From Goniomonas avonlea (Eukaryota > Cryptophyceae > Goniomonadida > Goniomonadaceae), in contig QUTJ01031826.1 in assembly GCA_003573635.1 (NCBI GenBank), forward strand, positions 1 through 24,455: DNA of 24,455 nucleotides, given 5' to 3'. Position numbers and translations under genes: made by a program. Shown here piece by piece: positions 290 to 24,377 of this stretch; positions within the stretch are counted from its first letter, which is position 1, and the number at the start of each line of letters is the position of its first letter. The notes under the pieces were generated by a model. It made no database searches and had not been told where the DNA came from. It was given only the letters and a program-made list of their open reading frames with translations.

Positions 290-428
290 ATTCTCTCTGG
301 GTTCGACACTGCCCTGCCACTTGGCACGGAAATCGTGGACAAGGGTGGCTCTCCGACCTTGGCGAATTCCACCACCGACCGACGCTATCTCCTCCTCCGC
401 CTCTTTCTTGGACCAACCAACGTCCCTG
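290..428 (+). CDS. NUP188: NUP188 exon 1 of the window
   Basis: This is 139 nt: 46 codons plus one base, entering in phase 0 after gctcccgcacag and leaving in phase 1 at a CCTG/gtgaaa donor. The peptide contains GFDTALPLGTEIVDKGG, then RRYLLLRLFLGPTNVP. In animal NUP188 a comparable stretch (a glycine-containing turn, a short acidic helix, a leucine-rich helix, then a TNNV motif) lies in the middle of the solenoid. Two other frames are open here, but only this one joins the next exon in phase. It is a helical scaffold segment with no catalytic motif expected. Confidence 0.55.
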
Positions 429-2196
429 GTGAAACTCGGTGCGCCTGCCTTACAATACCGGTCGGACCACAGGTTCATCCTATCTTATTCTTATTTCACA
501 ATACGATAACGAACTGTCAAGTGACTAACTCACACATGTGGCCTAGTTTCGAACAGACCACGGGCCTGACCGCACGCACCGCAGGCCGACGTCTGTGCTT
601 GTGGCGGCCGACCCGAAGGCCGAGTTCCGAGCCCTCACCCCGTCGTCGGCAACTCCGGCTGCCGGAGGGTCGCGTCTGGCGCGTGGACCTCCGAGCACTG
701 GCGGTCAGGGCCGCCCTGTCCTGAAGTCGGAGTTTGTGGCTGGAGGAGGCGGCGAAGGAGTGGCTAGAGCACAGCGCTTGTCGTTCTGGGACTGCTTGCT
801 GCGCTGGCTGTTACCGGACCGGCCTGGACCCCCAAGTTCTGTGCGCCCCCCCCCCCGCGCGCGCGCACCCACGGCATGTTTACCAGACCCAGTCAACGAC
901 ATTCACGACAGATTTAATCAAATACACTTTCTCACAAAGATAATACCACACACGTGACCTTCTGTCATGATTTTGACCTTGCAGACGACTTTTCCAGAAG
1001 CTGCTCTCTTTACTGGCAGAATGTGGTAGGCACAGGCACAAGGACACACGCGCAGGGAGAGAGACCACTGCCTTGGACCGCGGCCGCACTGTGTGATCGA
1101 GCTGCGTGTTAGTGCCTCTGTGTGCCTAGCCCCTCGCAGTACACTGGCCGAGGTTCCCGCAATCTCTCTCTGTGTGTGTGTGTGCGTGTCGGTGTGGCTG
1201 TCTCTCGCTCTCCCCTCCCGCTCGCTTTTCCCCACATTGTCACCCTCACAAACTGTTTTTTGATAAGGGAGGCGAGCTACGTGACTTCACGCGTGTTAGC
1301 GGGTGTACACAGTAGCGTGGTTCAGCACGAGGTGTTAGACGCTGTGGACTAACCACTCATACAGCAAGTGCGACACGATTGGTGGGTTAGCGGGAGGCGA
1401 GAGTGCCATAGGCTAACTGATCGAGGCTAGCATGTACCATAACCAATGTGGGACAATGCCCAGACACAGGGACACCAAGGGACGTGGGGCACCAAGGGGA
1501 CGCAGGGACACGAAGGGGCCAAGTGGGACAAAAAGTGTAGGCGAGGGCGGGTGGGCCAGGAAAACCAAGGAGCAGGGCAGTGCTGCGTTCCAAGTTTCCC
1601 GAAGCAAGGGAAACTGCCGTCTGTTGGCTTTTGACTCGGATTGACAAGCCAATCCGTAGTCAGTCATATCCAAACCAGATAGCCAGCAATCGTCATTCTG
1701 GTTATTCAACCTGCGATGGTAGGACAATCGATGTTTTTTCAGGTAAAAGAAATGCGAGGAGGTAGAATTTACGAGAGTAGGTAAAAAGGAGGTATATCAT
1801 AGATCTTGCAGTGACATAAACAATGATAGCACCAGAGGTCCAACCCACGACACACACAACCACACACTCACACACACACACACTGCTCTCTTCCTCACCC
1901 GACACCGTGGCGCAGCTCTCCGTGGTGCAGCCCTCCGTGGCGCCCCGCGTGACCTTCAGCCTTGCACCAGATGCATCCACTCCGACCTTGGCGCTGTCGA
2001 TCACCTTGCTCTCTCCCAAGAAGTTGAGCACCAGGCTGCCACCCGCTCCGCCGCTGCGCTTTGTGTTCAAGCGCCCTGACGCTGTGCCCACGGGTATGCC
2101 GGCCACTGCGCCGTGGAAGGAGTGGCTGCTCCGTCGCATTGCTGGTGTGTTCGAGACAGACAGAGACCTTTTCACACACACAGTGAGTGAGTAAGT

Positions 2197-2251
<55 letters not shown>

Positions 2252-8200: not shown

Positions 8201-11200
8201 TGGAGCTTGGGAACGATATCCCAATCTCGGGCAAGATAGATAACGGATTCCTATCAAGGCTTATCCGTTAGAGGTAGGGAGACTTGTGTTGAATCACCAG
8301 AAATCCAGAGATTCAACCCTGACCGTGTAAACGTGCGCAACACTGCAGGAGTCACGAGAATCTATGACAGTTATCTCGACTCCTAAAGTGAGAGGCAGCA
8401 TAAAGCTTTTCTCAATTAGGAGTTGCGATTTCATAGAGACCAGGCTAACCAGATTAGATTGGAGATGTAGTTGTGCAGCCATCTCTAGTCCAGCAGGCGG
8501 CGTTCAGGACGATCATGTCCCTAGGAGAGTGAGGGAGGGAGAAGAGAGAGAGAGGGAGAGAGAGAGAGAGATACATTTGAGAACTCAGGCTCTCCTGCGG
8601 GCATGCTCCTCACCTGACCTGTTTGCGAAAGAGCAAACACCCTGCGTGCCTGCACTGTGTGCTATCTCTGCTGGCCTGGGAGAGCAATCCCCTGTGCTTT
8701 ATTGCTGAACCTGCCTCTCTAACATCCATGCCTGCAGTCGGGATCCACGAAATGCAATTGCTGGACGAGAGCAGTGGGCAGCCCGAGAATGATGTAAGGA
8801 CAACATCTCGCACCTGTATTCTTTGTGCCATTTGTTGCCTTGCCTTGCGATCTTGACACTCGCCCACTTCAGCTCTGCACTCATGCATTCAATCTTTCTG
8901 CACTCCGTACCCGCACACACACCCGCACTATCTGCACTCTCTGCGCACGCTCGGGTGACAACCTTGGCAGCTCCTGCTCCTGCGGCAAGCTGCTTTTGAG
9001 TCAGGCCACACCTCACGTCTGGACATGGTGCGCCAGGTGTTGCACAAGAATGAGGGAGACTGTGACGGAGTCAGGGTGTGGTGTGGGCGCGGCGTGCCTT
9101 GCGGGTGTGACACAAGAATGAAAGACAGCGACAGAAACAAGTAGACAGAGAGAGACAGGGAGAGCCAGTGGGATGGTGTGGTGGTGTCTTAAAGCACAGG
9201 GTGATGTGTTCACTTTTGACTTGCCTTGCCTCACTTACGCGTGCTTTGCCTTCCACCACCCTCACTTTGTGCTTCTCCTCACACACCTGTTGCACATCTG
9301 CCTCACACACTGCACTTTTCCTTATTGGTTGCACTTGCGAACAGGAGATCGAGATCACTGCGTTAACGCTTCGGGACCTTGAACTTGCCGGTTGGCACCG
9401 CTCGTCTGCTGCCGACATGGCTGTTGCTCAGGTCTGTCTCCATGTGGGCGCCGTCCGTGTGTGTTCGTATGTCTATTTGTGTAGGTTTGTAGGCCTGTCT
9501 ATGCTGTCTCTGTCTGTTTTTTACAAAGCGATGTGTGTGTTGCTTAATATTGTCTCTGAGTCGAGTCAGGTCCTCGGCCCGTTCGCGAGTCTTAGACTGA
9601 CACCAGAACCGCGGTTGCGTACTACGAGAGTGCGAGCTTCGGCTCTGGCTTTGCCCATCTATCGTCCTTGCCCCTTCTGGAAGTACCAGTTAGCCGTGAA
9701 CTGGTGTGAGTCTATTTCCGGGTTCAAGCCTGAGCGACACGGGCGAAAGTTGCCTTTCGTTTCATATCACTCATGCTGGGAACTTTGGGGTCTTTGGCTG
9801 TTGTGCCTTCTTGGATTTTTGTGGCGATCCTAGCGATCAATGCCCTTGCCCTACTCACCATCACTGTGATCACGCTGAGAGTTCAAACTTTTACTCGGCA
9901 ACCCACCCGATGTACCCATCGTTCCCCAGTCACCCTTGCGCGGCTCCGCCTGTCCGCAACGGTGCTTGCGAGATTCACGCCATGCCTGTGAGAGTTGCTG
10001 ACATCTCCAATGCTGACTACCTTGCCTTACTTCACCCACTCCACTGCGAGTGTCTCAACCTGCTTGCGACCCTGGACAGTCTGTACATCATGAACACCGA
10101 CCTCCACATGTTTGAGGCCACCTGCGTGTTCCACGACTGCCCCGGTGTTGATGGCCAAGTCACCGGTGGCATGGAGCTTATGCCTTGCTTGACTTGCGGT
10201 TCTATTTGGCATCAAGGCTGCACCAACCGTGGCAAGATGCACTACTTCTAGACAGGCGCCCCAGTCTGCGATGAATGCCTCGGCTACAGTAAAGTAGCCC
10301 ACTACAGATTTGATATTGGCACAAGTTATCGCTCTGCGTGAACCAGAGCCTGTTACCTGTCTATCAGCTCCGTGGCAGCACTGGAGCCAGCGGTCCGCCA
10401 CAAGGCGCCAACGGAGGAGCAATGCTTTAGTGTCACCAGCTTCATTATTGGATGTGAGACAGACAGACACGCGCAGCAAAGACATCCTGAAGAAAATCTT
10501 CAGTAATTTTTCGATTTATCACTCCCACGAATCACCCACGATCACCAACGGAAACTACTCTTGCCTGGAGAAGGGTGCAAGAGTTATCCATTTGCTGGAG
10601 CTGCAACGTGTCGCTCTCGAAGAGTGCAAGCTCACAAACAAACCAAGGGAAGTGTGCTGAGGGCCTTCTCTGCGCGTGCGAGCACGTGAAGGCCATCGTT
10701 CAACGTGGATGGCCTATGGCTTGGGAATATCTCAAGTTCTTTCGCGTCGCGCTGCCCTCCGCCCAAATCGATGAAGTTCTATGACCCTGGTGGAGGCACC
10801 AGAACATCATCACCCGCAGCAAGCTTGCGCCGCTGCCACTACCCTCAATACGAGAACCTCCACAAATTCGAGTATTGGGTCCAGCAAGGCCGACAAGATC
10901 ACACCGAAAGCTAGTGGCATCATTTGCGACTACTGCAGCAGGCACGGCCATCGCCGCTCCCTCGCCGAGATTGACAAATTGTCCAAGGAAGTATCCAAGC
11001 ACAAGCACTCGGAGGACAATGCCGACTGACTAGCCAACGATACTTCGTCTGAGGATGAGTTCGCTGACATGCCTCCACTCACAGGCGATTCTCCAATGAG
11101 TTTGCCTATTCCACCTATGCCAATCGATAGCGTCGCTTCTACTCTGTTTAAGGAGCAGCTTGCCGAGCTGTCCCTCGCCGACCGCCCATGGACCAGTCTC

Positions 11201-14200: not shown

Positions 14201-17200
14201 TGCGCTGGCCTGCTGTTTGTTTTTTTCTGGCCCACCCACCCTCACCTACACTGTTTGTCCCACTTCGCCCCTTCGTGTCCCTGCGTCCCTGTCGTGTCCC
14301 ACGTCCCTTGGCGTCCCTCTGTGCCTTGGGGTATTGTCCCACATTGTTTTATCGTACACGCTAGCCGTGATCCGTTAGCCGAATGGCAGTATCACCTAAC
14401 TTACCGATCGTGTCGCANTTGCTGTATGAGTGGTTAGTCTACGGCGTCTAACACTTCCCAGTGAACCACGCTACCATGTACACACCCACTAACCACAGTT
14501 GCGTGAAGTCATGAAGCTCCCCTCCCTATCGACACATGGTTTGTGAGTGTGGCAATGCATGCGTTTGTGTGTGTCTAACACACCTTCTCGTGTGTTTTGT
14601 GTGTGCTCGGTGCCTAACGCCCCTTGGAGATGTGGGACCGTCTGGACTTTCCCTTGGTGGTGGAGGCTGGGCCCAAGGTCGAAACCCTCCCGCCGACGCC
14701 GTTGCCGTCGTCTGTGCGCTGGGACCTCATCCACCGTCTGTCGTTTACCTTCGAAGTGCCTCCTTCGAAAACCAGACAACCAGGTGCCACACGCACTCAT
14801 TCGTCTCACCATCTCGGATTTGGCTAATGACTCGACTCGCTCCTGTGACCGTGTCCTCGTCTGTGTCTGCATTTGGGTCTGTGTCGTGTCTGTGCGTCTG
14901 TGTCTGTGTCTGTGTCTGTGTTGCCGCGTCTGGTCTGTTTCCGCTGTCCTATGTGTTCCGCGGTGGCACGCGGCAATGTCGACGAGAGGGTGCAGGGTGC
15001 AGAGTGCAGTCTGCGGAGTGACTTGGGTAGTAATCGTGCTGTTCGCGTTCCCACAACCAACACGCCAGGTGGCGATGAGGAGAGGTCATGCACTCGAGCA
15101 TCGCTGGAGTGTGCCGTGTGGCAACTCCTCTCCCTCGAAGCAGCAAGTCCCCATGCACCGAGGCCCACTCCAGCAACAACCACTCCTGTCACAACTGCCC
15201 CTGCGACCGACTCAGAGAGTGACGGTCTCGCGGCAATTCTCACGCAGGTGGAGGATTTGCAGGCGCTTCTCCGTAAGGCTGTTCGCTTGCTTCTGCCATC
15301 CTCCGCCACGGACCCCTCACGGGCAAGTTTACTCCTCGCTCCAATTGCTCCTGTCTCGCCCTTATCCTTCTCCTCCTGTCCTCTGCCACCCCTGACCAGA
15401 CAAGCCCCACCCCTCCACACATTGCCACACCATTATCACGAGCTAGCTAGGGTTTGGGAGCTCGGTGACTTCACGCAGAGCGCACATGATTAGCTGACGG
15501 CATACACGGCGACAGTCTACGGCCGCACTCTAACAATATATCATAGCATAATCGAGAATGTGACGGGACAAGACCCCCCAGTTATGAAGTGACCCTAGTT
15601 TCGTGCAGACTATGGTGGTGTGACAGGAAACATATGCATTAGTTGGGCTCCCCGACCCCAACAGTCCGGCAACAAACAACAGAAAAGTCGGACAACACAC
15701 TCACAAGTCGATCAATAGTGCAAAGCGAGCAACTAGCGAGAGTGCGACTGTGAAAGAGCCATAGGCTGGTTGTAGCTCCTTACTGCGAGCTACACACGGC
15801 GATCGCGAACAGGTTAGCGCCAGCAGGGCGAGTGGGGGTCTGCGTGCGGCTGCGACTCGCTGGTGCTGCGTGTGGTGCCGCCGGTGCCGAAGCTTGTGTG
15901 GGCTTAGCAAAGCCATGGAGCAGGCGTAGCTTGTTCTCAACGTCACACATGCTGTCGATCTGGGAAACCTTAGAGTGCCAGTAGCCGAAGGCTTGCAGCT
16001 GCTAAGGGAAGGGCTGCCAAGGGAGACGATGACCGCGTCTTGCTGTTCGTGCCCATGCAGCAACGCCCGGACCTGCTCAATGGTGTTGTCTGCGTCTGCA
16101 GTGTCGATCAGTCGACCGACGAGCAGGCGACGATCAGGCGACGATCACTTCTGTCACTTGCCTTGGCACTTAGCAGCATTCGGTAAGGTGACCGTTCTCA
16201 GTGAGCATTTGCACCATGAATTTCTGAAAGGACTGCATGCCCAGCTGCTCGCGGGTGTGGCGAGTCTTCTCCGCGTAGTGGTCAGGCAAGCCTCGACCCC
16301 TGGCCATGTCCATTTCTGTCTGGATGGGCTGAGTAGGTATCCGGGTGTTTGCCCTCCGGCAGACGAGGTGGGCAAACCACGACGCGAAGGGTAGGCCGAC
16401 ACAGTTGTCATCGGAAATATAGGGTCAGGTGTGCGTGTTGATGGGCTGTTCTTCTCGCTCTTCCATTGCTTCTGAAAAAGAACTGGCCATCGTGTGCCCT
16501 CAATGTGATAGGAGCGTCGTCGCGACCCTTCTCGATGAGCCCTGGCTGTGGTAGCGACCGCCAAGGACGGCGGCTCGTCTGAGCATGGTCCCTGAAAAGG
16601 CGATTTCCGCTAGCGCATACTCCTGCTCGAGTCAGTCAGCGGACTTCATATAAGTCTGTACGTGGAACTGTGTGATTGAGGTTGACGGGGATCTGCTCCT
16701 CGTTCGGCCAGTAGCTGGGGAGCTCCGCGGTGCGAAGTGCCTCCTCAATGCAGGGGTAGAGAAGTGTGTTAGTGGCGTTGGGGCAATAACGACGCCATGT
16801 CTGAGCCCAACCCCTTGCTGCCGAGATGCTGTTGCGGATGGTGGTGTGCTTGACCGTCACGATACACATGAGAATGTGGTGCACGATCCACAATACTGGT
16901 GGCATGGGGGGGCGGGGGGGGGGGAGTAGATGCTGTCGTGATGATAAGTGAAAGTGCACTGAAAGCGGATTCGGCGTCCACGTTGCTTGTGGACACCTTC
17001 GCTGTGGCAAGAAGATAGTAGGAAGCTCTGGAACTTCGGTGTGCCCCCTGGTCTGAAGTCAGTCGCAGCCCAGCATTGCATCGAACCAATGACTGGGTAT
17101 CGAAGCCTGGACAAGAAGCTGGAATGGCTCCGAAGCCTGCGAAACGATGAGCTAGCGCCATTGCGCCATTAGATAGATGCGAAACGATGAGATAGTGCCA

Positions 17201-20200
17201 TTGATAGTGCCAAACTTCTCCAAGTTTCCACGTGCAGTTGAAACTTCTCCAAGTTTCGACGAAACTGCACTCCAAGTTTCGACGTGTGGCACGCGAATAT
17301 ATACATTAATGAGCCACTCTAACGTTCATGAGACAAATTCCCGTAGCAACCAAGTAGCACCAAGCAACACACACCCTGCTCCTCCATTTCCTTCTCCCTC
17401 TCCCGCTCCCGCTCCGCTGCCAGCTTTTCCTCACCTTCTCCCTCTCCCTCGCCCCCCTGCACACGGCTCCCAGTCCCCCAAACCTGCCTCCTCCTCCATC
17501 TGCCCTGCTCTATCCTTCCGTCTCTCCTCACTCTCACTCCCTTTCACTCTCACTCCCTCTCGCTTCCATCTTCTTCCGCTCCCTCCTCCTCCCTCTCCTG
17601 GTCCTCCACCCTGTGCCTCCTCCCTCCCATCCTCCTCCCTTGAATGGGCCACGAGACTCACGGTCGAGCGCAGCCTCCAACACGACGGCGGGGTTGCGAA
17701 CGAATTGACCAAAGTCGGCTGCAGTTGCTGTTACAGGCCGCACGCGTCTCGCCTGCAAGCTGCGAGCAAACCATCGTCCCGGAGCTTGAGCCTGGCACCT
17801 ACAATGTTGAGGTGCGCCTGGCAAGCATTAAGTTGGTTCCGCCCCGTTCTGCTCAGCCAAAGGTTTGATTTCTGTAGTTAACACTTGCTGGATTCGCTGA
17901 GACACAATATGATTTGCCGGGCCTCCGACTTGGCCAACTAATCCGAGCTAGGCACTTGCATCTCCAGAACAACCCTCAGGGTTGAGGATGATTGCTTGTG
18001 ACTGCGAGATAACAACTACTCGTGTGCCCAGAGTAGCACATGTGGAGCTCATGCAGAATGCCTTACTTAATTTCCCTCTGAAGTCAGGTCTGGACTTGAG
18101 TTTATGCGTCTCTCTGTGCCTGGGTGTTTCTTCTGCATAACTTTGACTGGGTTTGTCTGTGCATGTCCGTGGGTTTGTGTGCCCGTGTGTGTGTATGTGT
18201 GTTTTGCTTTGGGCTATGATAGTTTGTATCACTGCAAATGAGTTGGAGATACTAACTTGTTACTACTGTTTTAGAGCTAGTGTTCCGTTGCGTGACTCCC
18301 TGATTCGGTCTATCAGATGGACTAACCATGAGTGACTGCCAATCCAAATTTGTAGGTCAAAACCAACTGGCACCTCGTTTGTTTTTCTGGACGGATCAAG
18401 CACAGCATTCCTTTTTCTGACCTTTTCAGACTACTCCAATGGCCTTACAAAGCTTCTTTGGCTTCACAGCCAACCCGATAATGTGCCCAGGCTTCATTGT
18501 TGAGACATTGATTTATTGCAATCTTGCTGGACCAGGATACTGTGCCAACCACGCCGCCACCCCATGACACTTCAGGGAGGCGACAGTGAAGACACAGTTC
18601 TTGATTTTTCAGTGTGGCAGACCAATCATCAGGACACACCCAGAGGTGAAGCTTCCAGAGGGGATTCGGTCTGATTGGCCCGAGCTGTCCGAGCTGCAAA
18701 ATGTTACATTGCAGTCTGCAACCTGATTTCAGAGGCTGACACAATGGTTGCAAACCACCAAATGCACTGTCTGCCACCAGAGCTCTCCCACCAGACTGCT
18801 GCAAGCACTTGAAGATGGGCTACAAAGGGGCTTGATGTGCACTGAAAGAGTTGTGCTGGGCCAGCCAGATCGTGTCAGCTACCAAGTGGCAATTCACATC
18901 CTACACGCCATGTGTGTGGAGATCGCCCGGGCACAAGTGAGGTCAGCATCACACTGTAGCAACCATCAGAGTATGACCAAAATGATAACACTGTGGAGGC
19001 TGTGCGACAGACACACATTCACAAGCCACACGCGGAGGACACCTACAAGACTACTAGACTGACATTACTGCTAGACTGAGAAACACCATGGCTGGCCCCT
19101 GGCATCTTACTACTTGCTGCTGTTGTGGCAACAGCAAACGTGATGCCAATCTCCTGTGACACTGAGCGCCATCTTGCACAGGAGCTCAGCGACACTGACG
19201 GTGATTGGGTCATTACACTGTCTGATTTGGGCCGCCACACCAGCTTCCTGTTACGTAGCTTCATGTTCTTTCATAGCCTTGACAGGTATTTCAACATAAT
19301 CAGGGTCTATCCTTCTCTACTGTGACGTCTACACTGGTGCAAACAGCAACGGCAGCAACGGCAGCAACGGCAGTGTCCTACACCTGGTGGCTATAAGCTC
19401 CCATGGAGCGCCAAGAATGGGGCTAAAGTAATGCCAAGAAGAAAAATGCCGTCCTTCTTCGGCACCATGCATCTCTTGCGGAGAGCTGGGTCATCAGTTC
19501 AGCAAGTGTCTGAAGCAATCCAAGCCCGAAATGGACCAGCGGCAATGGCAGCCCCTCGAGAAGAGCCGTCGAGGATTTCGTCCTACCCACTGATGGACAT
19601 TGGGGAAGGATGGTTCCAAAGAATGGTTGTAGAAGGTGCCCCCCCACCTGGTGGCTCCTGGGCACTTTCAGCGAAGACCCTATCTGGAAGACAGTCACAC
19701 CGGACCGGGAAGACATACTGAAGCATCCCCTTGAAGGAGACAAAACTGGAGAGAGTGTTGGGCATGGTACGAGCTGTGCAAAAAAAGAGTTCGGGAACTT
19801 GGGGGGCACACAGCGCTTTGTGTGGATCCCCATCAACTACAAGAAGGCACTGGGCAGGAGCAATCTTAGCGGGCAAGACCTGCCATTTTTGGTGACTCCA
19901 TGGATCTTCTTCCAATTTGAGAGAATCGCCTGGCAGCTCTATGTCTACTTCCCGCGCGACATCGCTGATCACTACGAGGTCACACGAGACGCTGAGACCT
20001 TCGGCACCACCTTTTACTACTGTGCAGTGCCAGTCGATCCAACCAGTGCTGTCCAAACCCCACACACAAGACTGCCAAGGGAAGCGATGGCCGTGTCTTG
20101 CTGTTCGTGCCCATGCAGCAACGCCCGGACCTGCTCAATGGTGTTGTCTGCGTCTGCAGTGCCTATCGGTCGACCGACGAGCAGGCGATCACTTCTGTCA

Positions 20201-23200
20201 CTTGCCTTGGCGCTCAGCGGCCACGTTGGTCCCATTCTGATCCCAGTCTGCCGCTGCAGCGCTTGCGCTTCGAGGGTCACTACTGTCACCGCCTCGGTCG
20301 TTCCTGGCAGGGAATCTGAGTACCTTGCATGGTGTGAAAGTGCAGCGCGAGGTCCACAGTCCTGGCTCCATCGATGCCTACTTGCGGGACACCCGGTTAC
20401 ACGCGCATGGGCATTTCACCAGTGTGCCATTCTTGTTTCTCCGCCCCTCCGCCCGATTTCTGGTCGACTGTCGAATGGACTGGGTCAGTTTTGACACAAT
20501 CCAGAATAAAATCTACACCTTCAAGAAGTGGTGCGAATGGGAGCACTACTTCCCCAGCGAGGTCCTGTGCTTTCAACCACTACGCGGAGCATTCTGGGTA
20601 GTCTCACGCCTCGCTCGGCGCCAACTCCGTCCTTTTCAGGACGTCGCGGCACCGCGAGTCACTACATGTATGCACTACAATAGACTTTGACAAAAGTGAT
20701 CTCGACTGACTCTTTTCGGCACTCCCTCACGACACCAAGGGGACCTCGTCCCGGGGTTTTCACCCTCTGGACCTCGTCATGCTCGCCACGTGTAAAACTG
20801 TGCGACATGGTTTGACACTCGGTCCTTACACAATATATTGCGTGATGATTGCCTCGCGTCTCTCTTTCGTTTGTTTGTGCTTGCCTCACACTGCTCCCAT
20901 ATGATTTGATTTGTTTGCAAAAGCCTCACACAAGTGTCACCATGGGGGAAAGGACCACCGCACAATTTCCCTAACCATAGGGGGGGTTCGGCGCTAGCTT
21001 GGTGAAAGATAAGTAATATACATATGGGTCATATGTCATATTCTTAACCGCCAACAATAGTAACACCATTACCTCTGACGCCTTCGCGTACAAGTAATGT
21101 TACTATCAGTGTAATAATAACTCTCCCATATTCCAATATAACTTGAAGCAGCCCTCTTGTGTTAGTGACATCGTGTGAGTGCGTGCGTGCGTGCGTGCGC
21201 GTGCGCGAGTGTGTGTGTGTTTACCATGTCATGGTGTCTGTTCCCTGCCTTAGTGACCGCTTCGACAGAGGCTGGCAGTCCTCTCGCATCCAGATGAACG
21301 AGACATCGTGATCCAGATCGCTCTGGTACGTACTGATCTCTGTCTATTTTGCTGTGTTGGTGGTTCATTGTTTCACAGCAAACTTTGTGCCAGCCCTCGC
21401 AAGATGTCGCTGTAACAGCACACGTTCTCGCTGACATGTCCTCTTGAATCCGCATTGAATGTGTGTCTCAGTTTTACAGCGAATCTAACACGATGTGTCG
21501 TTACCCCGGGCTGACACTGTTGCCTGTTGTCTTGGTGCAAGTCTACAGGGCAAGGCTACAAGGCAACGTGGACAAGGACACTGCTGCCTGTTGCCGTGGC
21601 CCAAGTCTTCCCCGGACTGCCCGGTCTCTCTTTGCGTGTGTGTCCTCAGAGGTGGAGGAGATGGGAATGTCGTCGCTCTCGAGACATGGCGTTGAACATA
21701 TTCTGTGTCCCCTTGGTTTCTGTCTCGCCCGGAAAGGTCTCACACGTTCGTCTTTGACAGCGACTCAATTCGGAGGCAGTGTTGTCCATGAGGAGAGCCC
21801 GCCTCCTCTCCTCTGCATGCAGGTTTTTACGGGCGTTGGCCCAGCACCGACGAAAGGCTCTCACAGCGGCGCTGTCTGCGGTGGGTGGTGCAACACTACA
21901 ACCCATGCCCGACAAACCCGACACACGAGGGAGGGAGGGGGGAAGCGGTTGTTGACTGCAGACAGATAGGCGCGCTTGTGTGTGTGGGGGAGGGGGGGGG
22001 GGGCACCCTGGAAACCAGCTCGCGCCACACGCATACCCAACACGCACGCACGGCAGCAACCATGCGGAGCACGCTCAACGCACACGCACTGGATCCCTGT
22101 CGTTACTCGTCGCACGCACTCCCTAGTAGCAAATACTCGTTCCATTTGTCTGCCCAACCAGCACAAATACCTACCCGCTCTGTGTCAGATGTAGACAACT
22201 TGAGCAGCACAACACATGTGCGATGTCCAAACTTCCTGTTGGGTGGACAGGAATGAGGAGTCCAAGTGCAAGACGACAGGATCCAGCGTTCATCTCCGGT
22301 TTGATTGAGGGTCGCTTGGGCGAAATGTGCCTCCCACCGCCTCCACTCGCAGTCTCTGTCGCTGCCTCGCACCACGCGCACCACCATTGACTTCATGCCC
22401 CCCAGGCGCAAGGGGTCAGCGGCGATGGCGGGGTGACGCTGTTGCTACTCTGCCGTGTCCTTGTCCGCCGACTGCAATCTCTGTACATGAACGCGCCAGA
22501 CCAGGCGGTGCCCCTCAAACTGGAGGTTGCTCGCACTCTAAGCACTCTGATCGCTCTCTTGGTCCCGTTCCCTCAATCCTCGGGTGCGGCGAGCACACCG
22601 CACGTGTTGGGTGTGACACTCCCGGCCACCGGTGCACAGGGTTTGGTGGAGGATCTCACCGCCGTGTTGGCCACTGCGGTGACTCTGGCGCAGTCTGCGG
22701 GGCCGGGTGGGTCGAACGATGGTGTGACTGGGGATACAGACAGCCACGCCAGGGTGTGTGGCTGTGTCGTTGAGTCTCTGCTCAGTCTGTTTGTGTTCCT
22801 CACCCCTCCACCGGCGGCAACCAGTTCCGCTGAGACGGACTCGTCCTGGCTGAGTAACATGGCGCAGCATCTGTTTGTTCCCTTGTGCCTCTTCCTGCGG
22901 CTTGCGGCGTCCCTGTCGGAGGATGGCGCGGCCATGGACGTGGACCCCCGTGGCGGCGCCCCGACCGGTCAGCACGCAAACGGCTTGGGGGCCGACGATG
23001 TCGGGGCGCTGGACAGCGACGGGGGCAACACTTCGTCGCACGCCGCTCGGGGCGCATCGTTGTTGGCGGTGCTTCTGACTTGCACGCGGGGGTTGCGGTG
23101 TGAGCGCAGTGACGGCAGTCTCCCCAACTCGCCTCTGCACAGCTTGGAGTCTGAGGGCACGATTGACCGGTCTTTTCTAACTGTGTCTCCTGGCATCTTC

Positions 23201-24377
23201 GACTGGCTCTTGGAGCCCGCCGATGTCGGTGTGGACGCAGACCCGAACAATCGCAGACAGCATGCGCACCCCAATCCACACTCGCACGCATACGCCCCGG
23301 GTGCAAGTGCCGCCGTGTCGTCCAGGCCCGGGTGGGCCCTGGCCACAGGCCCACAGGCACAGGCAGCACTACACTGTCTCCTTGCGCTCGCGCGCACTCG
23401 CTGTGGTGCCCTCACCCTGCTCGCCTCGGGGTTCATTGTGAGTGCCGCTCGCCCCCGCTTCCACCTCTCTCACTCGCTCCCGCTCCCACTCCACTGTCTC
23501 CTACTCCCCCCGCCCCCACTGTCGCTCATTCCACCCACTCCCACTGGCTTTCACGCGCCCTCTCTCCCTCGTTTGTGGTTGATACTGTGGCTTGCAGTTA
23601 TCGATGCAGGTGTTCAGCGAGGGTGAGAAAGGGAGAGAGGGAGAAGGGGGCCCATGCAAGAACCGAGGCAGTCGCGCTGGCTTGTTCCTAGGGTGCGGGA
23701 CTCAACAGTATCTGGTCCATCAGCAGATTATGCACAGGCGTGGAAAACCATAGCACCCTTGGCCCTGTGAGAAATCTCACGTAACGCAGCTTCCAGGATT
23801 TTTTGCGGTCTGCTCCTGTGGTGTCAGCCATTCTAGGGTCGAACCAGCGCGACGGCTTAGGCTTTTACAAGGGGCTTTCTGGAAGTGCAAACGCTGCAAG
23901 TCGCAACGTGGACAAGGACCCCGCACACGTCATGTGGTGCAACCTGCTGCTGGTGTGTGTGCCCTTGTGCTTTCCTTCCGTCCGAGCTGGGCTCTCGAAA
24001 AACGCGCAAGCTGTGCGGTTTGAGGTTCTCAGAGCACACCCTCCAGGCTCGGGGCGACAGCTGTGGTCTGCGTCTGTGTCTGTCTGACGCCGTGCGCAGC
24101 TCGTGTCTGTGATCGGCGGGCATCTGGCGGACCACGACGACTTTGTGACTGGAAGCGTGTCGCTGTTGCTCGTCTACGCCTCTCGCTGGATGGCAATTGC
24201 GTCGATGCCACAGCCTGCACCACAGGTCCAGCACTCGCTCCACAGCCTCCAAGGACGTCGGCTTTCACAGCACCCTGTGTCGCACACGGGACCTTCCATC
24301 CCCACCTCGCTCAGTGGCGCTGCCTGGGGCGGCCCTCTGTGCCTTGCGCGGTTGCAAGAGGCTGCCCTGTGGATGGC
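290..24377 (+). CDS. NUP188: NUP188 nucleoporin gene, partial, 12-exon model
   Basis: Gene-level entry for the twelve exons listed separately below. NUP188 is a scaffold subunit of the inner ring of the nuclear pore complex, an alpha-helical solenoid that binds NUP93 and helps anchor the pore in the nuclear envelope. Identification rests on the order of recognisable segments compared with animal NUP188 as remembered: a pattern like TNVP after a leucine-rich helix, a segment around WDRLDFPL, the VEVRLASIKL to TLLLLCRVLV transition, the acidic MDVDP loop, the ALHCLLALARTRCGA repeat helix, and the VSVIGGHLADHDDFV to LARLQEAALWMA stretch. Phases agree across all eleven introns, which chance frames would not give. 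The coding total is about 2.8 kb of about 24 kb. The gene starts before the window and continues after it. Its close relative NUP205 is the main alternative. No database search was possible. Confidence 0.75.
557..840 (+). CDS. NUP188: NUP188 exon 2 of the window (3' end uncertain)
   Basis: It starts after gtttcgaacag. The first two bases complete a codon begun in exon 1 and give aspartate. The reading passes through VLVAADPKAEFRALTPSS, a flexible Gly/Ser/Pro-rich stretch, and a Trp/Leu helix, RLSFWDCLLRWLLP. High GC at third positions and an open frame of almost 300 nt support coding. The flexible stretch would be a loop between solenoid helices. The donor is doubtful: gtgcgc at 841 keeps phase 0 with exon 3 but is weak, and earlier GTs such as the one in GGA/gtggct are possible. 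An alternative acceptor is gcaccgcag at 584. Confidence 0.5.
841..1233. other. Intron 2, left part: low-complexity sequence
   Basis: No gene is visible. It opens with a C run followed by alternating CG (about 845-866). It has an AT-richer segment around 890-960 and a (TG)n stretch around 1170-1190. The short open frames here are simple-sequence artefacts. R1 repeat copy 1 follows immediately. Confidence 0.5.
1234..1830 (-). repeat. R1 interspersed repeat, copy 1
   Basis: A block of about 600 bp that recurs in the opposite orientation at 13998-14556. The two copies match along their whole length, although they have clearly diverged. Shared landmarks, read on the minus strand, are a head (gctatcattgtttatgtcac), a middle section rich in gtcccac/gtcccttg units, and a tail containing gtgtacac, gcgtgaagtcac and gtttgtgag. 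No coding capacity, clear terminal inverted repeat or poly-A tail is seen, so it is either a non-autonomous element or a solo terminal repeat of something unidentified. Confidence 0.7.
1441..1560 (-). repeat. Internal minisatellite of R1 copy 1
   Basis: Degenerate units of about 16-17 bp built on agggacaccaaggga on the + strand fill the middle of R1. They are present in both R1 copies, with unit counts that seem to differ, so they belong to the element and are not a later expansion at one site. Confidence 0.6.
1916..2144 (+). CDS. NUP188: NUP188 exon 3 of the window
   Basis: This is 229 nt, entering phase 0 after a strong acceptor (pyrimidine tract gctctcttcctcaccc, then gtggcgcag) and leaving phase 1 at a GCTG/gtgtgt donor. 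The peptide includes APDASTPTLALSITLLSPKK, PPLRFVFKRPDAVPTG and APWKEWLLRRIA. It resembles the animal NUP188 segment where a proline precedes LAI..LL..LA, a short loop follows, and a helix ends in an LTRL-type motif. A long minus-strand frame covers the same bases (about 1702-2181). The + strand is preferred because only it has phase-consistent partners on both sides. Confidence 0.6.
2199..2258. repeat. (GA)n microsatellite 1
   Basis: A nearly pure GA run preceded by GTGA repeats. It lies just inside intron 3 and stands before segment X and segment B of the A/B repeat, the same place a GA run has in copy 2 (7727-7772). Confidence 0.9.
2259..2458 (+). repeat. Spacer X of A/B repeat copy 1, with a SINE-like B-box match
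   Basis: Two hundred bases between the GA run and segment B. It contains gtgagttcgagtttggg at about 2354, which resembles a tRNA-type B box (GGTTCGAnnCC), and upstream bases with the rhythm of a tRNA-derived SINE head. No convincing A box or cloverleaf can be folded by eye. Part of it (tctgttagg, then gtgag) recurs at 7848-7864 in copy 2. It may be the head of a SINE-like element. Confidence 0.3.
2459..2760 (+). repeat. Segment B of the A/B repeat, copy 1
   Basis: Matches 7942-8240 in direct orientation, best over 2500-2650, with shared runs such as agctaggtga, gactgacttga and gggacgggaggggt-like text, then weaker similarity through caaac..cct..g and a later region ending in gggca. There is no open frame of note. 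It is an interspersed non-coding repeat of unknown class, inserted in intron 3. Confidence 0.65.
2761..3071. repeat. Spacer Y of A/B repeat copy 1
   Basis: No gene is visible. It has faint similarity to 8290-8360 (ccctgac / aaacgt / gcaacac order). It separates segment B from the second GA run and looks like the diverged rest of the same repeat unit. Confidence 0.3.
3072..3172. repeat. GA/GACAGA microsatellite 2
   Basis: Purine-rich run of gaga, gacagaga and gcgagagc units about 100 bp long, ending directly at segment A. Long minus-strand open frames across it translate to Leu/Ser repeats and are not genes. Confidence 0.9.
3173..3296 (+). repeat. Segment A of the A/B repeat, copy 1
   Basis: Matches 7593-7726 in direct orientation: aggaagcac start, CA-rich spacer with caaaatgca- or caatgcagg-type text, tgatccggga/tgatccagga, gatcaatccagatca, tggtcaag or cggtcaag, then gtc(c/t)gataacactgtc. 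In copy 2 the middle reads gatccaggacctggatc, an inverted repeat with 8-bp arms. It ends in a short duplication, gataac(a/g)ctgtc, in this copy only. Confidence 0.7.
3297..3520. other. A-rich low-complexity stretch
   Basis: Purine- and A-rich sequence (caaaaaaacc, aaaaaaacaaag, caaaaacaaaaacaag) between segment A and the LTR-retroelement block. No gene is visible. Its A-richness might be the tail of a retroposed copy, but the strand and source are not clear. Confidence 0.4.
3521..4690 (-). mobile_element. Left part of the retroelement block, unassigned
   Basis: Begins with a short duplication (actatatgaga twice near 3514-3537). Minus-strand pieces such as VEARLMELDSDRRAARWPQS around 3890-3958 have a coding feel, and the + strand around 4515-4610 also reads openly. 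None matches a domain I can name. It is probably more pol or gag debris of the same block. Confidence 0.35.
4692..5012 (-). mobile_element. Retropepsin-like protease fossil
   Basis: A minus-strand open stretch with a hydrophobic run leading to ALLDT followed by AAVALIS, the layout around the catalytic aspartate of retroviral-type aspartic proteases (usually LLDTGA). It belongs with the gypsy-type block. It lies downstream of the reverse transcriptase on the same strand, which is not the usual gypsy order (protease before reverse transcriptase). Confidence 0.55.
5092..5560 (+). mobile_element. Retroelement integrase fossil (zinc-binding and core start)
   Basis: Plus-strand remains of a gypsy-type integrase. 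FHNHVVGHRGVRD and CGACQKIRLG (5140-5295) give the His-His and Cys-Cys pairs of the HHCC zinc-binding domain. ALCIDFEGPLPEDSKG (5340-5390) matches the start of the catalytic core around the first acidic residue. A short, less certain continuation follows to about 5560. It is broken several times. Confidence 0.65.
5561..6077 (+). mobile_element. Retroelement-derived stretch between integrase and reverse transcriptase remains
   Basis: Low-similarity sequence continuing from the integrase remains. No domain is recognised. It includes a short near-duplication (tgctgctgtgcccaca twice near 5910-5945). It is probably the decayed 3' part of the integrase or an inter-element join. Confidence 0.3.
6078..6840 (-). 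mobile_element. Ty3/gypsy reverse transcriptase fossil
   Basis: The minus strand shows the gypsy reverse transcriptase order: an N-terminal approach (SPAVRQDIKEQV, about 6590-6640), a FPLPNAKELL piece (about 6440), then the longest run at 6365-6078 with TPDRLYQINWVQYGLKNGPA, the FQQVM helix and LNLDKCVFGV near its end. These are the classic blocks before and after the catalytic palm. One base in it is undetermined (6258). It is a fossil with several breaks. Confidence 0.8.
6851..7141. other. Intron 3 sequence between retroelement block and MITE
   Basis: Contains an AT-rich stretch with aataataataaaatc (about 6884-6898) that looks like a polyadenylation signal on the + strand, perhaps the end of an element. 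The rest is ordinary intron sequence with no gene visible. A small palindromic match (gagctctggccacgtggccgcgg) sits near 7010-7032. Confidence 0.4.
7144..7505. mobile_element. Tc1/mariner-type MITE, 362 bp, TA-flanked
   Basis: Perfect 31-bp terminal inverted repeats at 7144-7174 and 7475-7505, starting CAGTATTTTACC, flanked by a TA dinucleotide at 7142-7143 and 7506-7507. TA target duplication and CAGT ends are typical of the Tc1/mariner superfamily. There is no transposase frame, so it is a non-autonomous MITE. Inside it, 7250-7272 and 7301-7324 form a second inverted repeat differing by one inserted base, and 7342-7364 is a further copy of the same motif. Perfect TIRs suggest a fairly recent insertion. 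Confidence 0.85.
7250..7324. repeat. Nested inverted repeat inside the MITE
   Basis: Left arm 7250-7272 (cggcgtgttcttactaaag...) pairs with right arm 7301-7324, leaving a loop of 28 bases. A third related unit is at 7342-7364. The core ttcttacta(aa) also appears in the terminal repeats, so the whole element is built from one motif family. Confidence 0.8.
7593..7726 (+). repeat. Segment A of the A/B repeat, copy 2
   Basis: Direct repeat of 3173-3296. The central gatccaggacctggatc is a near-perfect palindrome (8-bp arms, one central base), better kept than in copy 1. Here segment A precedes the GA run, while in copy 1 it follows one. Confidence 0.7.
7727..7772. repeat. (GA)n/(GACA)n microsatellite 3
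   Basis: Run of gaga, gacaga and gacagaca units joined directly to segment A of copy 2. Confidence 0.9.
7773..7941 (+). repeat. Spacer X of A/B repeat copy 2
   Basis: Between the GA run and segment B. A small patch (tctgttaggtttgtgag) resembles 2339-2357 of copy 1, but the rest has diverged beyond recognition by eye. No gene is visible. Confidence 0.35.
7942..8240 (+). repeat. Segment B of the A/B repeat, copy 2
   Basis: Direct repeat of 2459-2760, best over 7979-8110. It shares atctgcgg, cgagac, agctaggtga, gactgacttga and gggacgggagggg blocks in the same order. The spacing between blocks differs by small indels. Confidence 0.65.
8241..8737. other. Intron 3, right end
   Basis: Spacer Y of A/B copy 2 grades into a fourth GA run (8524-8571). 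The last 160 bases have no repeat and end in an acceptor tract (ctgcctctctaacatccatgcctgcag) directly before exon 4. An open frame at 8364-8708 crosses the GA run and is not supported. Confidence 0.5.
8524..8571. repeat. (GA)n microsatellite 4
   Basis: GA-rich run with interspersed ggga. It closes the A-GA-X-B-Y-GA order of repeat copy 2. Confidence 0.85.
8738..8793 (+). CDS. NUP188: NUP188 exon 4 of the window
   Basis: A 56-nt exon between catgcctgcag and GAATGAT/gtaagg, both close to consensus. Two bases complete the codon left by exon 3 (valine), then GIHEMQLLDESSGQPEND. It fits the place in animal NUP188 where a helix ending in a VLELID-type motif is followed by a short polar loop. The preceding intron is about 6.6 kb and the following one 551 bp. 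Confidence 0.65.
8794..9344. other. Intron 4
   Basis: 551 bp with canonical ends (gtaagg ... gcgaacag). It holds a short CA-rich stretch around 8910-8930. No element or gene is recognised, making it one of the few introns here of over 300 bp without a visible insertion. Confidence 0.55.
9345..9431 (+). CDS. NUP188: NUP188 exon 5 of the window
   Basis: Exactly 29 codons, phase 0 at both ends, between ttgcgaacag and GCTCAG/gtctgt. The peptide EIEITALTLRDLELAGWHRS continues with SAADMAVAQ. In animal NUP188 the equivalent helix pair runs from an A.AFL..L motif to the residues just before FWENL, matching the way this exon joins WDRLDF of exon 6. It is a helical repeat of the scaffold. Confidence 0.65.
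9432..9699. other. Intron 5, left edge
   Basis: About 270 bases of T/G-rich intron sequence after the exon 5 donor. Open frames continue through it by chance. The change to retroelement-derived sequence is placed at about 9600-9700 and cannot be fixed more precisely. Confidence 0.4.
9706..10285 (+). mobile_element. Retroelement region with PHD-like zinc finger
   Basis: An open stretch ends in a Cys/His pattern: CVFHDC, then CLTCGSIWHQGC, then CDECLG at 10270-10288. The spacing C-x3-C ... C-x2-C-x4-H-x2-C ... C-x2-C follows the C4HC3 order of PHD fingers, including the aromatic residue before the histidine. PHD fingers bind histone tails in host proteins and occur in a few retroelement proteins. 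Its N-terminal part is Pro/Cys/His-rich and unassigned. It is a fossil with breaks. Confidence 0.5.
10286..11926 (+). mobile_element. Retroelement middle region, gag-like with knuckle-like motif
   Basis: Several short + strand stretches. One contains IICDYCSRHGH (about 10919-10951), which looks like the start of a CCHC zinc knuckle, followed by a charged helix. Another, at 11069-11290, has LSLADRPWTSLLPLIEEIY, helical and gag-like in feel. Neither gives a firm family. One undetermined base lies at 11405. Confidence 0.4.
11927..12966 (+). mobile_element. Reverse transcriptase fossil (DIRS-like)
   Basis: The fingers block MHFMSKVKDDG then KWHLIFDCKHSGHN (11927-12010) matches the V-x-K-x-DG...W-x-L-I-x-D-x-R...N motif of reverse transcriptases. 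At 12390-12440 a piece with VIEFHIDKTLELD matches the block after the catalytic palm. At 12585-12620 RIAGKFNYMA resembles the thumb motif (L-x-GK-x-N). At 12860-12900 LTPQARLHIAWWV matches a tryptophan-pair helix found after the reverse transcriptase in DIRS-type elements. It is broken several times. Confidence 0.65.
13150..13530 (+). mobile_element. Helical retroelement region shared with the intron 7 copy
   Basis: Contains CYISDNNCVGLP (13153-13190), CGHLTEQLQAFGFWRSSVSK (about 13340-13400) and charged helices around them. Matching pieces YISDDNCVGLPF, NGHLT and LQAFGYWHSKVSQI occur in the same order on the minus strand between 16430 and 15950. The two places are therefore diverged copies of one element family. 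The function of this region is unknown. It is helical and may be structural. Confidence 0.6.
13575..13690. repeat. Two-unit 58-bp tandem repeat with palindromes
   Basis: Unit 1 is 13575-13632 and unit 2 is 13633-13690, differing at only a few bases. Each unit carries the perfect 14-bp palindrome GAGGTTGCAACCTC and, next to it, gcgacagtc(g)tgg/gcgacagtcgcgg, which in unit 2 is a second inverted repeat (gcgac-a-gtcgc). The period is not a multiple of three. It sits at the distal end of the retroelement fossil. Confidence 0.85.
13761..13873. other. Short intron stretch between fossil and R1
   Basis: No feature is recognised apart from a run of seven or more Gs near 13852. It ends where the first R1 tail begins. 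Confidence 0.4.
13874..13987 (+). repeat. R1 tail segment, extra copy
   Basis: 114 bp nearly identical to 14444-14556: gcgtctaacac, ccgtgtacacacccactaac, ttgcgtgaagtcac, gtttgtgagtgtg in the same order. It stands directly before the head of R1 copy 2, giving a tail-head-tail order with the tails as direct repeats about 570 bp apart. Confidence 0.8.
13998..14556 (+). repeat. R1 interspersed repeat, copy 2
   Basis: The head, starting gctagaatagtttgtatcac, is followed by tgactgactacgga, a caatccg/gagtcaaa patch, acggcagttcccttgct, cacccaccctcacctacac, the gtcccac minisatellite (about 14250-14350), tgtatgagtggttagtctac and the tail. It is the reverse complement counterpart of 1234-1830. One undetermined base lies at 14418. 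It is non-coding and lies near the right end of intron 5. Confidence 0.75.
14557..14629. other. Intron 5, 3' end with acceptor
   Basis: T/G-rich tract (gtttgtgtgtgtc, cgtgtgttttgtgtg) then gccccttggag before exon 6. The last AG gives phase 0 with exon 5. The tract is not strongly pyrimidine-rich, so the acceptor position is moderately sure. Confidence 0.4.
14630..14783 (+). CDS. NUP188: NUP188 exon 6 of the window
   Basis: This is 154 nt: phase 0 in, phase 1 out at AACCAG/gtgcca. It reads MWDRLDFPLVVEAG, a Pro-rich loop, then VRWDLIHRLSFTFEVPPSK. The order matches animal NUP188, where FWENL..PL is followed by a Pro/Ser loop and a helix of the L-I-x-K-I-x-x-L-E-x-Y type. The minus frame over the same bases is basic and unlike a protein. 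Preceding intron 5 is about 5.2 kb and carries the retroelement fossil. Confidence 0.65.
14784..15068. other. Intron 6
   Basis: 285 bp, gtgcca ... aacacgccag, with a TCTGTG-repeat stretch (about 14856-14935). A long + strand frame runs through it by virtue of the repeat. No element is recognised. Confidence 0.5.
15069..15247 (+). CDS. NUP188: NUP188 exon 7 of the window
   Basis: GT completes the glycine codon begun in exon 6, then GDEERSCTRASLECAVWQLL, a Thr/Pro-rich low-complexity loop, and DSESDGLAAILTQ. With the donor CAG/gtggag it ends in phase 0 and joins exon 8 as ...LAAILTQ/LLLQAAR, one continuous helix. A stronger-looking donor, CTCC/gtaagg at 15273, would end in phase 1 and break the join. 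The LECAVWQLL helix fits the LLEYQMLVSAW region of animal NUP188. The Thr/Pro loop appears to be lineage-specific. Confidence 0.55.
15248..15700. other. Intron 7, left part
   Basis: The first 240 bases stay open in the exon 7 frame and are CT-rich. They could be coding under an alternative donor, but they end in a stop at 15491. The rest (15490-15700) shows no gene or recognised repeat. Confidence 0.4.
16008..16190. repeat. Shared segment, also at 20066-20227
   Basis: Nearly identical in the same orientation over about 165-180 bp: ctgccaaggga, cgtcttgctgttcgtgccca, gcaacgcccggacctgctca, gtgttgtctgcgtctgcagt, then gatcacttctgtcacttgcc. This copy has about 20 extra bases around 16125-16145, caused by a local duplication of caggcgacgat. 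It is part of the minus-strand retroelement fragment. Confidence 0.85.
16900..16926 (+). repeat. G-run tract 1
   Basis: Two long G runs interrupted by a single C in intron 7. It could form a G-quadruplex in the + strand or transcript. No function is claimed. Confidence 0.7.
17139..17211. repeat. Local duplication of about 40 bp
   Basis: gcgaaacgatgag(c/a)ta, then gtgccatt- or gcgccatt-type text repeats at 17139 and 17179, each followed by atag patches. It stands next to the 29-bp repeat. Confidence 0.7.
17213..17288. repeat. 29-bp tandem repeat, about 2.6 units
   Basis: Units at 17213-17241 and 17242-17270 begin aacttctccaagtttc, and a partial third follows at 17271. It is intronic, between the retroelement fragment and the pyrimidine tract. 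Confidence 0.75.
17364..17640 (+). promoter_or_regulatory. Long pyrimidine-rich tract before exon 8
   Basis: About 280 bp made almost entirely of C and T on the coding strand (tccctctcccgctcccgc-type units) shortly upstream of the exon 8 acceptor. Pyrimidine tracts upstream of an AG help U2AF binding, but this length exceeds what splicing needs. It may also form a triplex. A shorter tract of similar make lies at 23448-23545 before exon 10. Confidence 0.55.
17641..17724 (+). other. Open stretch between pyrimidine tract and exon 8
   Basis: Reads openly in another frame as EWATRLTVERSLQHDGG and on, which looks protein-like, but that frame does not continue into exon 8. It may be chance, part of an alternative exon, or evidence that exon 8 starts earlier. 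Confidence 0.3.
17725..17862 (+). CDS. NUP188: NUP188 exon 8 of the window
   Basis: 46 codons, phase 0 at both ends, between gtcggctgcag and CCAAAG/gtttga. It reads LLLQAARVSPASCEQ, then PELEPGTYNVEVRLASIKL. The VEVRLASIKL helix corresponds to the CLRLGSMK helix of animal NUP188, which is followed by a leucine run and a tryptophan/arginine helix. Here the leucine run is supplied by exon 9 (VTLLLLCRVLVRRLQ). An inner GAG/gtgcgc could serve as an alternative donor and would give a shorter exon. Confidence 0.65.
17863..18429. other. Intron 8, left part with an R1 head fragment
   Basis: No gene is visible. At 18213-18264 the sequence gctatgatagtttgtatcac, then gagatac and aagttac/cttgttac patches, matches the head of R1 copy 2 (13998-14047). 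The rest of R1 is absent. The T/G-rich stretch just before it is simple sequence. Confidence 0.5.
18430..19064 (+). mobile_element. Unidentified coding remnant with CxxC
   Basis: A mostly open + strand stretch containing EGIRSDWPELSELQNVTLQS, a piece with TTKCTVCHQSSPTRLLQALE and the helix RVSYQVAIHILHAMCVEIAR. No family is recognised. Given its position in a repeat-filled intron and upstream of a zinc-knuckle remnant, it is probably part of a decayed mobile element and not a host exon. Which strand is coding is not certain. Confidence 0.35.
19344..19373. repeat. 9-bp tandem repeat (cagcaacgg)
   Basis: Three exact units and a partial fourth in intron 8. Confidence 0.85.
19440..20065 (+). mobile_element. 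Retroelement gag fossil with CCHC zinc knuckle
   Basis: At 19468-19509 the + strand encodes CISCGELGHQFSKC, an exact C-x2-C-x4-H-x4-C nucleic-acid-binding knuckle typical of retroelement Gag proteins, followed by a charged tail. Downstream, another + frame is open to 20065 and beyond, with IFFQFERIAWQLYVYFPRDI, unassigned. The minus strand is also open for about 480 bases. It is a fossil broken several times, family unknown, perhaps related to the intron 5 element. Confidence 0.55.
20066..20227. repeat. Shared segment, second copy of 16008-16190
   Basis: Same orientation as 16008-16190 and nearly identical, without the roughly 20-bp internal duplication. Its minus strand reads ADADNTIEQVRALLHGHEQQ, as does the intron 7 fragment. 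It is bounded on both sides by sequence not shared with intron 7. Confidence 0.85.
20320..20690 (+). mobile_element. Possible tyrosine-recombinase N-terminal remnant
   Basis: A 121-codon open stretch with SFDTIQNKIYTFKKWCEWEH, which has the T-x(3)-Y/I...F-x-x-WC rhythm of the N-terminal SAM-like domain of tyrosine recombinases, the integrase type used by DIRS-like elements. The catalytic half is not seen. The resemblance is weak. Confidence 0.3.
20691..21649. other. Intron 8, AT-richer middle part
   Basis: No gene is visible. At about 21056-21108 an imperfect inverted repeat (atagtaacaccattac ... gtaatgttactat) can form a stem. At 21176-21222 a TG/CG alternating run occurs. Two copies of caaggctac/caaggcaacgtggacaagg-type text near 21540-21580 repeat loosely. 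The element content is unclear. Confidence 0.45.
21650..21736 (+). CDS. Possible extra NUP188 exon
   Basis: A strong acceptor (tttgcgtgtgtgtcctcag) and a GGAAAG/gtctca donor bound exactly 29 codons in phase 0 at both ends, so it can be spliced in or skipped without breaking the frame. The in-phase peptide (DMALNIFCVPLVSVSPGK at its end) is not clearly like NUP188, and exon 8 joins exon 9 sensibly without it. It may be an optional exon or chance. Confidence 0.25.
21737..22405. other. Intron 8, right part
   Basis: Contains a long G run (about 21984-22001) and no recognised gene or repeat. It ends in ttgacttcatgccccccag, a good acceptor, before exon 9. Confidence 0.5.
22406..23437 (+). CDS. NUP188: NUP188 exon 9 of the window (largest)
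   Basis: 344 codons, phase 0 at both ends, from ccccccag to GGGTTCATT/gtgagt. In order: a leucine/arginine helix (VTLLLLCRVLVRRLQSLYMN), helices around LEVARTLSTLIALLVPF and GLVEDLTAVLATAVTLAQ, a Gly/Asp loop, VCGCVVESLLSLFVFL, a helix ending FVPLCLFLRLAASLSEDG, the acidic loop AAMDVDPRGG, a long low-complexity loop, SLLAVLLTCTRGL, and finally QAQAALHCLLALARTRCGA followed by LTLLASGFI. The acidic SMETDD-type loop and the LHLLLTLARTQQGA helix of animal NUP188 lie in the same order. The minus-strand frame (22538-23140) is basic and a shadow. The loops are longer than in animals. Confidence 0.8.
23438..23597. other. Intron 9
   Basis: 160 bp with canonical gtgagt donor and gtggcttgcag acceptor, and a C/T-rich middle (ctcccgctcccactcc type). 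Confidence 0.7.
23598..23622 (+). CDS. NUP188: NUP188 microexon (25 nt)
   Basis: Eight codons, LSMQVFSE, plus one base, between ggcttgcag and a GAGG/gtgaga donor. It enters phase 0 from exon 9 and leaves phase 1, which is what the next exon needs. The residues fit the animal pattern after the repeat helix (a glycine-isoleucine, then a leucine-rich turn). Reading on past the donor gives a Gly/Arg-rich tail of about 40 codons that stops at 23752, which does not resemble the family. Confidence 0.5.
23623..23827. other. Intron 10
   Basis: 205 bp, gtgaga ... cctgtggtgtcag, with a T-rich tract (gattttttgcggtctgctcctg) before the acceptor. An earlier AG at 23796 would give an in-phase-0 start and a longer exon, but not the phase left by the microexon. 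Confidence 0.6.
23828..24024 (+). CDS. NUP188: NUP188 exon 11 of the window
   Basis: CC completes an alanine codon, then ILGSNQRDGLGFYKGLSG, a polar linker, DPAHVMWCNLLLVCVPLCFP and QAVRFE. The W-x-x-L-L helix after a polar linker corresponds to the WPGVYRLSMSLMEQLL helix of animal NUP188. The donor GAG/gttctc is weak but keeps phase 0 with exon 12. Other GTs downstream would change the phase. Confidence 0.65.
24025..24099. other. Intron 11
   Basis: 75 bp, gttctc ... gccgtgcgcag, with a gtctgtgtctgtct tract. It contains an in-frame stop (tga at 24085), so retention would end the protein. Confidence 0.6.
24100..24377 (+). CDS. NUP188: NUP188 exon 12 of the window
   Basis: Enters phase 0 after gccgtgcgcag and reads LVSVIGGHLADHDDFVTGSV, a hydrophobic helix with YASRWMA, a Gln/His/Ser-rich loop, and LCLARLQEAALWMA, leaving phase 2 at GATGGC/gtgagt. 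With QAVRFE from exon 11 it reproduces the ALDFVGVHQERTLQCL to LACLEEADHTVGFI region of animal NUP188, near the C-terminal solenoid. The animal loop between these is much shorter. The gene continues to the right. Confidence 0.75.

Follow-up and report, generated by a model that had tools for sequence, protein, structure and literature searches.

A plus-strand host gene of at least 13 exons amid transposon-laden introns, probably a partial and strongly diverged NUP188

The window, meaning the whole 24,455-nt stretch of DNA analysed here, has a GC content of 54% and carries microsatellites, LTR-like repeats and exons that look spliced; by these features it is eukaryotic, transposon-rich DNA. Scans of the window for tRNA genes and Rfam RNAs returned neither. 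The gene model was rebuilt from plus-strand open segments with AG/GT bounds, the exons being chosen partly by eye. The resulting chain consists of 13 exons running from 290 to 24377, every one of them AG/GT-bounded and all 12 junctions consistent in phase, and the spliced sequence is open through 876 codons, with its start and end both lying outside the window. Acceptors are of the YAG type in 12 of the 13 exons, the exception being 14630, which is preceded by GAG. The exons are as follows, z denoting codon-position bias.

Exon 1, 290..472 (+), phase 0 to 0: AG/GT-bounded and open, proposed frame best of three; translation pieces ILSGFDTALPLGTEIVDKGG...RRYLLLRLFLGPTN...; alternative donors at 422, 429, 439 or 461
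Exon 2, 1916..2144 (+), phase 0 to 1: gcgcag acceptor; z 2.0
Exon 3, 8738..8793 (+), phase 1 to 0: ctgcag acceptor, gtaagg donor; z 2.0
Exon 4, 9345..9431 (+), phase 0 to 0: aacag acceptor, cag/gtctgt donor; z 2.2
Exon 5, 14630..14783 (+), phase 0 to 1: MWDRLDFPL...; GAG acceptor, less certain; z 1.5
Exon 6, 15069..15247 (+), phase 1 to 0: gccag acceptor, cag/gtggag donor
Exon 7, 17725..17862 (+), phase 0 to 0: contains LQLLLQAARVSPAS; z 1.6
Exon 8, 21269..21325 (+), phase 0 to 0: RLAVLSHPDERDIVIQIAL; gacag acceptor, gtacgt donor; z 1.6
Exon 9, 21761..21880 (+), phase 0 to 0: contains LLSSACRFLRALAQHRRKALTAAL; codon bias neutral
Exon 10, 22406..23437 (+), phase 0 to 0: 344 codons, predicted helical; ccccag acceptor, gtgagt donor; ends AQAALHCLLALARTRCGALTLLASGFI
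Exon 11, 23598..23622 (+), phase 0 to 1: 25-nt microexon LSMQVFSE; ttgcag acceptor, gtgaga donor
Exon 12, 23861..23952 (+), phase 1 to 0: ttag acceptor; z 1.1
Exon 13, 24100..24377 (+), phase 0 to 2: gcgcag acceptor, gtgagttg donor; z 1.2; the gene runs past the window

Edges are uncertain in four exons: on the donor side in exons 1 and 6, and on the acceptor side in exon 7 and in exon 5, where the acceptor is GAG. Exon 6 may extend to about 15326, where the codon bias is stronger, its peak at 15194-15313 lying past the phase-consistent donor (after 15247), and exon 7 may start at 17674, directly 3' of a long C/T-rich tract. The open frame 13229-13503, which looks like retroelement coding sequence, was left out of the chain: an inverted copy of its stretch 13353-13438 occurs at 15919-16009. 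The initial annotation had proposed twelve phase-consistent AG/GT exons over 290-24377; a chain of that kind can be built, its first acceptor and last donor falling exactly on those end coordinates, the best chain counts 13 exons, and the agreement in phase is weak evidence, since about 15% of random relative-frame assignments reach full consistency at the 12 junctions when sites are freely chosen.

Coding evidence independent of homology and phase was obtained with a codon-position base-composition model trained only on exon 10 (22406-23437) and applied to the other 12 exons. Summed over these 12 exons, the score was +33.8 for the frames of the model, whereas the two alternative frames gave -81.8 and -123.4; the proposed frame was the best in 11 of the 12, exon 9 (21761-21880) being the exception; compared with stop-free windows of both strands, the combined Stouffer z of the codon-position bias was about 4.5. 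Among 500 local shuffles, 9 produced an open frame as long as the 411-codon one at 22391-23626, whose length is thus moderately improbable by chance, and repeats found by self-BLAST overlap none of the 13 exons. Because of the codon-position bias, the rarity of the 411-codon frame and the freedom of the exons from self-repeats, we accept that a host gene is present in the window. The proposal that the small exons make up one host gene, overlooked among transposon pieces, is likewise supported by the codon-position bias and the splice structure.

Decayed mobile elements fill the introns; the elements and repeats noted are as follows.

6078-6374 (-): reverse transcriptase fragment (RVT_1, E 6.7e-12) inside a decayed LTR retrotransposon at about 2458-8146
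3169-3299/7589-7729 (77%) and 2458-2659/7941-8146 (70%): LTR-like repeat pairs flanking the RVT_1 fragment
7142-7507: MITE-like hairpin element, 366 bases long, whose 33-base terminal inverted repeats (TACAGTATTTTACC...) are perfect; it lies within the LTR element
1235-1675/14105-14557: pair of inverted repeats, each about 450 bases long, 80% identical, 12.4 kb apart
13874-13987 and 14444-14556: 114-base direct repeat (89%) associated with the right copy (14105-14557) of that pair
9700-13760 (+): run of broken retroelement-like frames, with a PHD-finger-like Cys/His pattern near 10111-10300
13353-13438 (+)/15919-16009 (-), 70%, and 16014-16177/20072-20221 (+), 85%: dispersed repeat pieces

The region 2458-8146 perhaps holds two nested LTR elements. 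A Pfam search of the tested frames in 9700-13760 gave no match, and relatives of one retroelement frame, sought in viral contigs, were not found. The dispersed repeat pieces suggest that the frames of coding appearance in 13140-13500 and 15700-20700 are parts of mobile elements.

The spliced protein was compared with profiles built from residues 378-1492 of human and frog NUP188 and residues 858-1732 of NUP205. Of the sequences used, human NUP188 and NUP205 were compared letter by letter with PDB chains 5ijo_J and 5ijn_D, NUP188 proving identical over both queries and NUP205 identical save for three residues; beta-catenin and importin-beta served as controls. In an hmmsearch of all open frames, exon 10 was the top hit for NUP188, with an E-value of 0.7, which did not surpass the best hit of a reversed profile. 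The spliced protein scored 1.9-2.8 bits against the NUP188 profile, a score reached by none of 500 shuffles (none of 300 in another run) and, for the longest variant of the protein, by 2 of 500. Against the NUP205 profile 48 of 500 shuffles did as well, and the importin-beta and beta-catenin profiles gave the spliced protein no hmmsearch score. Chaining local matches exon by exon gave 46.8 for NUP188 against 29.2 +/- 4.3 in shuffles (0 of 200 as good), 26.6 against 24.9 for NUP205, and for reversed NUP188 a value below its own shuffle mean. When the exon edges were set more conservatively, the NUP188 chain fell to 40.7 against about 29.5, and 6 of 300 shuffles were as good; in a further run about 25% of shuffles equalled the NUP205 chain. 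The z of the chain over residue shuffles is about 2.4 to 4 for NUP188 and about 0.5 for NUP205, with none for reversed NUP188. Judged against shuffles, the similarity to NUP188 exceeds that to its paralogue NUP205 and to the other solenoids tried. When the entire window was aligned to NUP188 by spliced dynamic programming, the plus strand scored best (37.5 against 29.2 +/- 1.7 with block-shuffled profiles); the alignment was discounted beyond the motif at 23357-23455 because its trace passed through two spurious pieces, 16230-16343 and 21165-21239.

The NUP188 signal comes mainly from one strong and one moderate motif. The strong one is AQAALHCLLALARTRCGALTLLASG, at the end of exon 10 (23354-23437), which matches NUP188 columns 957-981 (human about 1335-1358) with 26.1 bits; the moderate one is LLSSACRFLRALAQHRRKALTAAL of exon 9 (21803-21874), whose best match, 19.1 bits, falls in NUP188 columns 604-627 (human about 980-1003), and the two stand in NUP188 order. 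The top match of LQLLLQAARVSPAS in exon 7 is to NUP188 profile columns 496-509, and a weak motif in exon 5 resembles both KFWENL of NUP188 and MWERL of NUP205, its position breaking the NUP188 order. Exons 11-13, considered as the segment following the GAGI motif, were no more similar to it than shuffles. Over the whole exon set, between 5 of 200 and 109 of 300 permutations of exon order did as well (p about 0.02 to 0.36, varying with the exon edges), the result being non-significant at more conservative edges (94 to 109 of 300, the latter at the most conservative ones); the segment order that the initial annotation had taken as shared with animal NUP188 does not reach significance over the whole set.

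Searches of standard databases were run with HMMER filters on and hence at low sensitivity. For the protein of this gene, an hmmscan of Pfam-A up to E 10 matched no family, nucleoporins included, and a phmmer search of PDB sequences up to E 10 matched no nucleoporin and no solved structure; viral and prokaryote contigs likewise yielded no relative of exon 10. The profile of the C-terminal half of vertebrate NUP188 also misses the plant NUP188 in PDB, and the identity between two fungal Nup188 proteins is only 15% (PMC3679522), so that weak similarity is to be expected of a Nup188 and the missed match is weak evidence against one. Because neither Pfam nor solved structures recognised NUP188 in this low-sensitivity test, we do not file the gene as a confirmed member of the family. 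The middle of NUP188, about 378-939, by which plant NUP188 can be found in a sequence search, is matched least here. If the gene is NUP188, the window covers only about residues 500 to 1410 of about 1750, with the region matching human residues of about 550-900 poorly accounted for; to call it a recovered NUP188 gene, as was done at the outset, is an overstatement.

Members of the NUP188 family are alpha-solenoid proteins of about 1600-2000 residues that bind Nup93/Nic96 and are located at the nuclear pore. An AlphaFold2 prediction for exon 10 alone consists almost only of helices (mean pLDDT 46, too low for a fold search), and would fit a solenoid rather than prove one. According to PMC3679522, every Nup188 orthologue has an SH3-like insert, which was not found in Nup192. 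Exon 1, a short sequence, compared no better than shuffles with the human and plant SH3-like stretches; an SH3-like region there is possible rather than demonstrated, and that reading was not adopted.

Taken together, the locus probably holds a partial, strongly diverged NUP188 gene, represented by an internal part of a plus-strand gene of at least 13 exons; the identity is suggestive, drawn from sequence similarity, with no shuffle in 500 matching the profile score of the NUP188 reading and that score amounting to about 2 bits. Slightly less assured, at somewhat better than even, is a fuller reading: a NUP188 orthologue too diverged for standard family profiles, its coding sequence divided among small exons by introns of several kilobases laden with transposons, and its lineage absent from the reference sets used. 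A less likely, though still serious, explanation is a real single host gene for another alpha-helical repeat protein of the ARM/HEAT type, in which LHCLLALARTRCGALTLLASG, the decisive motif, would be a generic helical-repeat motif. This motif does resemble an ARM-type helix pair, Pfam and PDB gave no nucleoporin match and no SH3-like domain was detected in exon 1; yet it is the NUP188 profile that rises above shuffles, those of beta-catenin, importin-beta and NUP205 failing to do so, and the second motif, in exon 9, fits NUP188 best and stands in order.

That the strongest NUP188-like motifs sit in the 3' exons, and that exons 1-4 match nothing, would also suit two or more adjacent genes, the 3' exons (21269-24377) being NUP188-like and the 5' exons (290-9431) another gene or decayed elements. 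We consider this improbable, as all exons share one strand, consistent phases and a common codon bias. Least probable by far is NUP205/Nup192, the paralogue of NUP188: MWDRLDFP resembles NUP205 MWERLTAP (14.8 bits), and NUP205 also gives a weak alignment with the GALTLLASG motif, whereas neither the spliced protein nor the exon-wise chain scores clearly above shuffles for that protein.

Under the NUP188 reading, the exons would belong to one plus-strand gene giving one transcript, its large introns holding decayed transposable elements that splicing would remove. The spliced product would be a segment of a large scaffold protein, alpha-helical and in all likelihood a very diverged NUP188; by homology it may serve as an alpha-solenoid brick of the nuclear pore's inner ring, where NUP188 is such a scaffold (PMC8421043). 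If so, a core nuclear-pore gene can escape Pfam-level annotation through divergence and intron fragmentation, which would call for caution before NUP188 is declared absent in poorly sampled eukaryotes. The gene is of an ordinary kind and its importance lies mainly in gene annotation; ideas on nuclear pore structure are unaffected even if the reading is true.

Among known systems, the ARM/HEAT proteins used as controls share with the window protein a common, generic style of helical-repeat motif and yield no hmmsearch score. NUP205/Nup192 is a paralogous helical scaffold with an LTRVAKIQQGAxELLRSGVI-type motif and MWERL, but its similarity is not clearly above residue-shuffled controls. From NUP188 (human; Xenopus, 7wkk_B; plant, 9sob_B) the window protein differs in its acidic and proline-rich insertions, in a middle that is largely unmatched, in a database E-value short of significance, in an SH3-like domain that is not demonstrated and in a gene that lies only partly in the window. 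It is also predicted to be helical, as NUP188 is, NUP188 is the only profile tried that stands clearly above shuffles, and its two motifs match near human residues 980-1003 and 1335-1358, in order.
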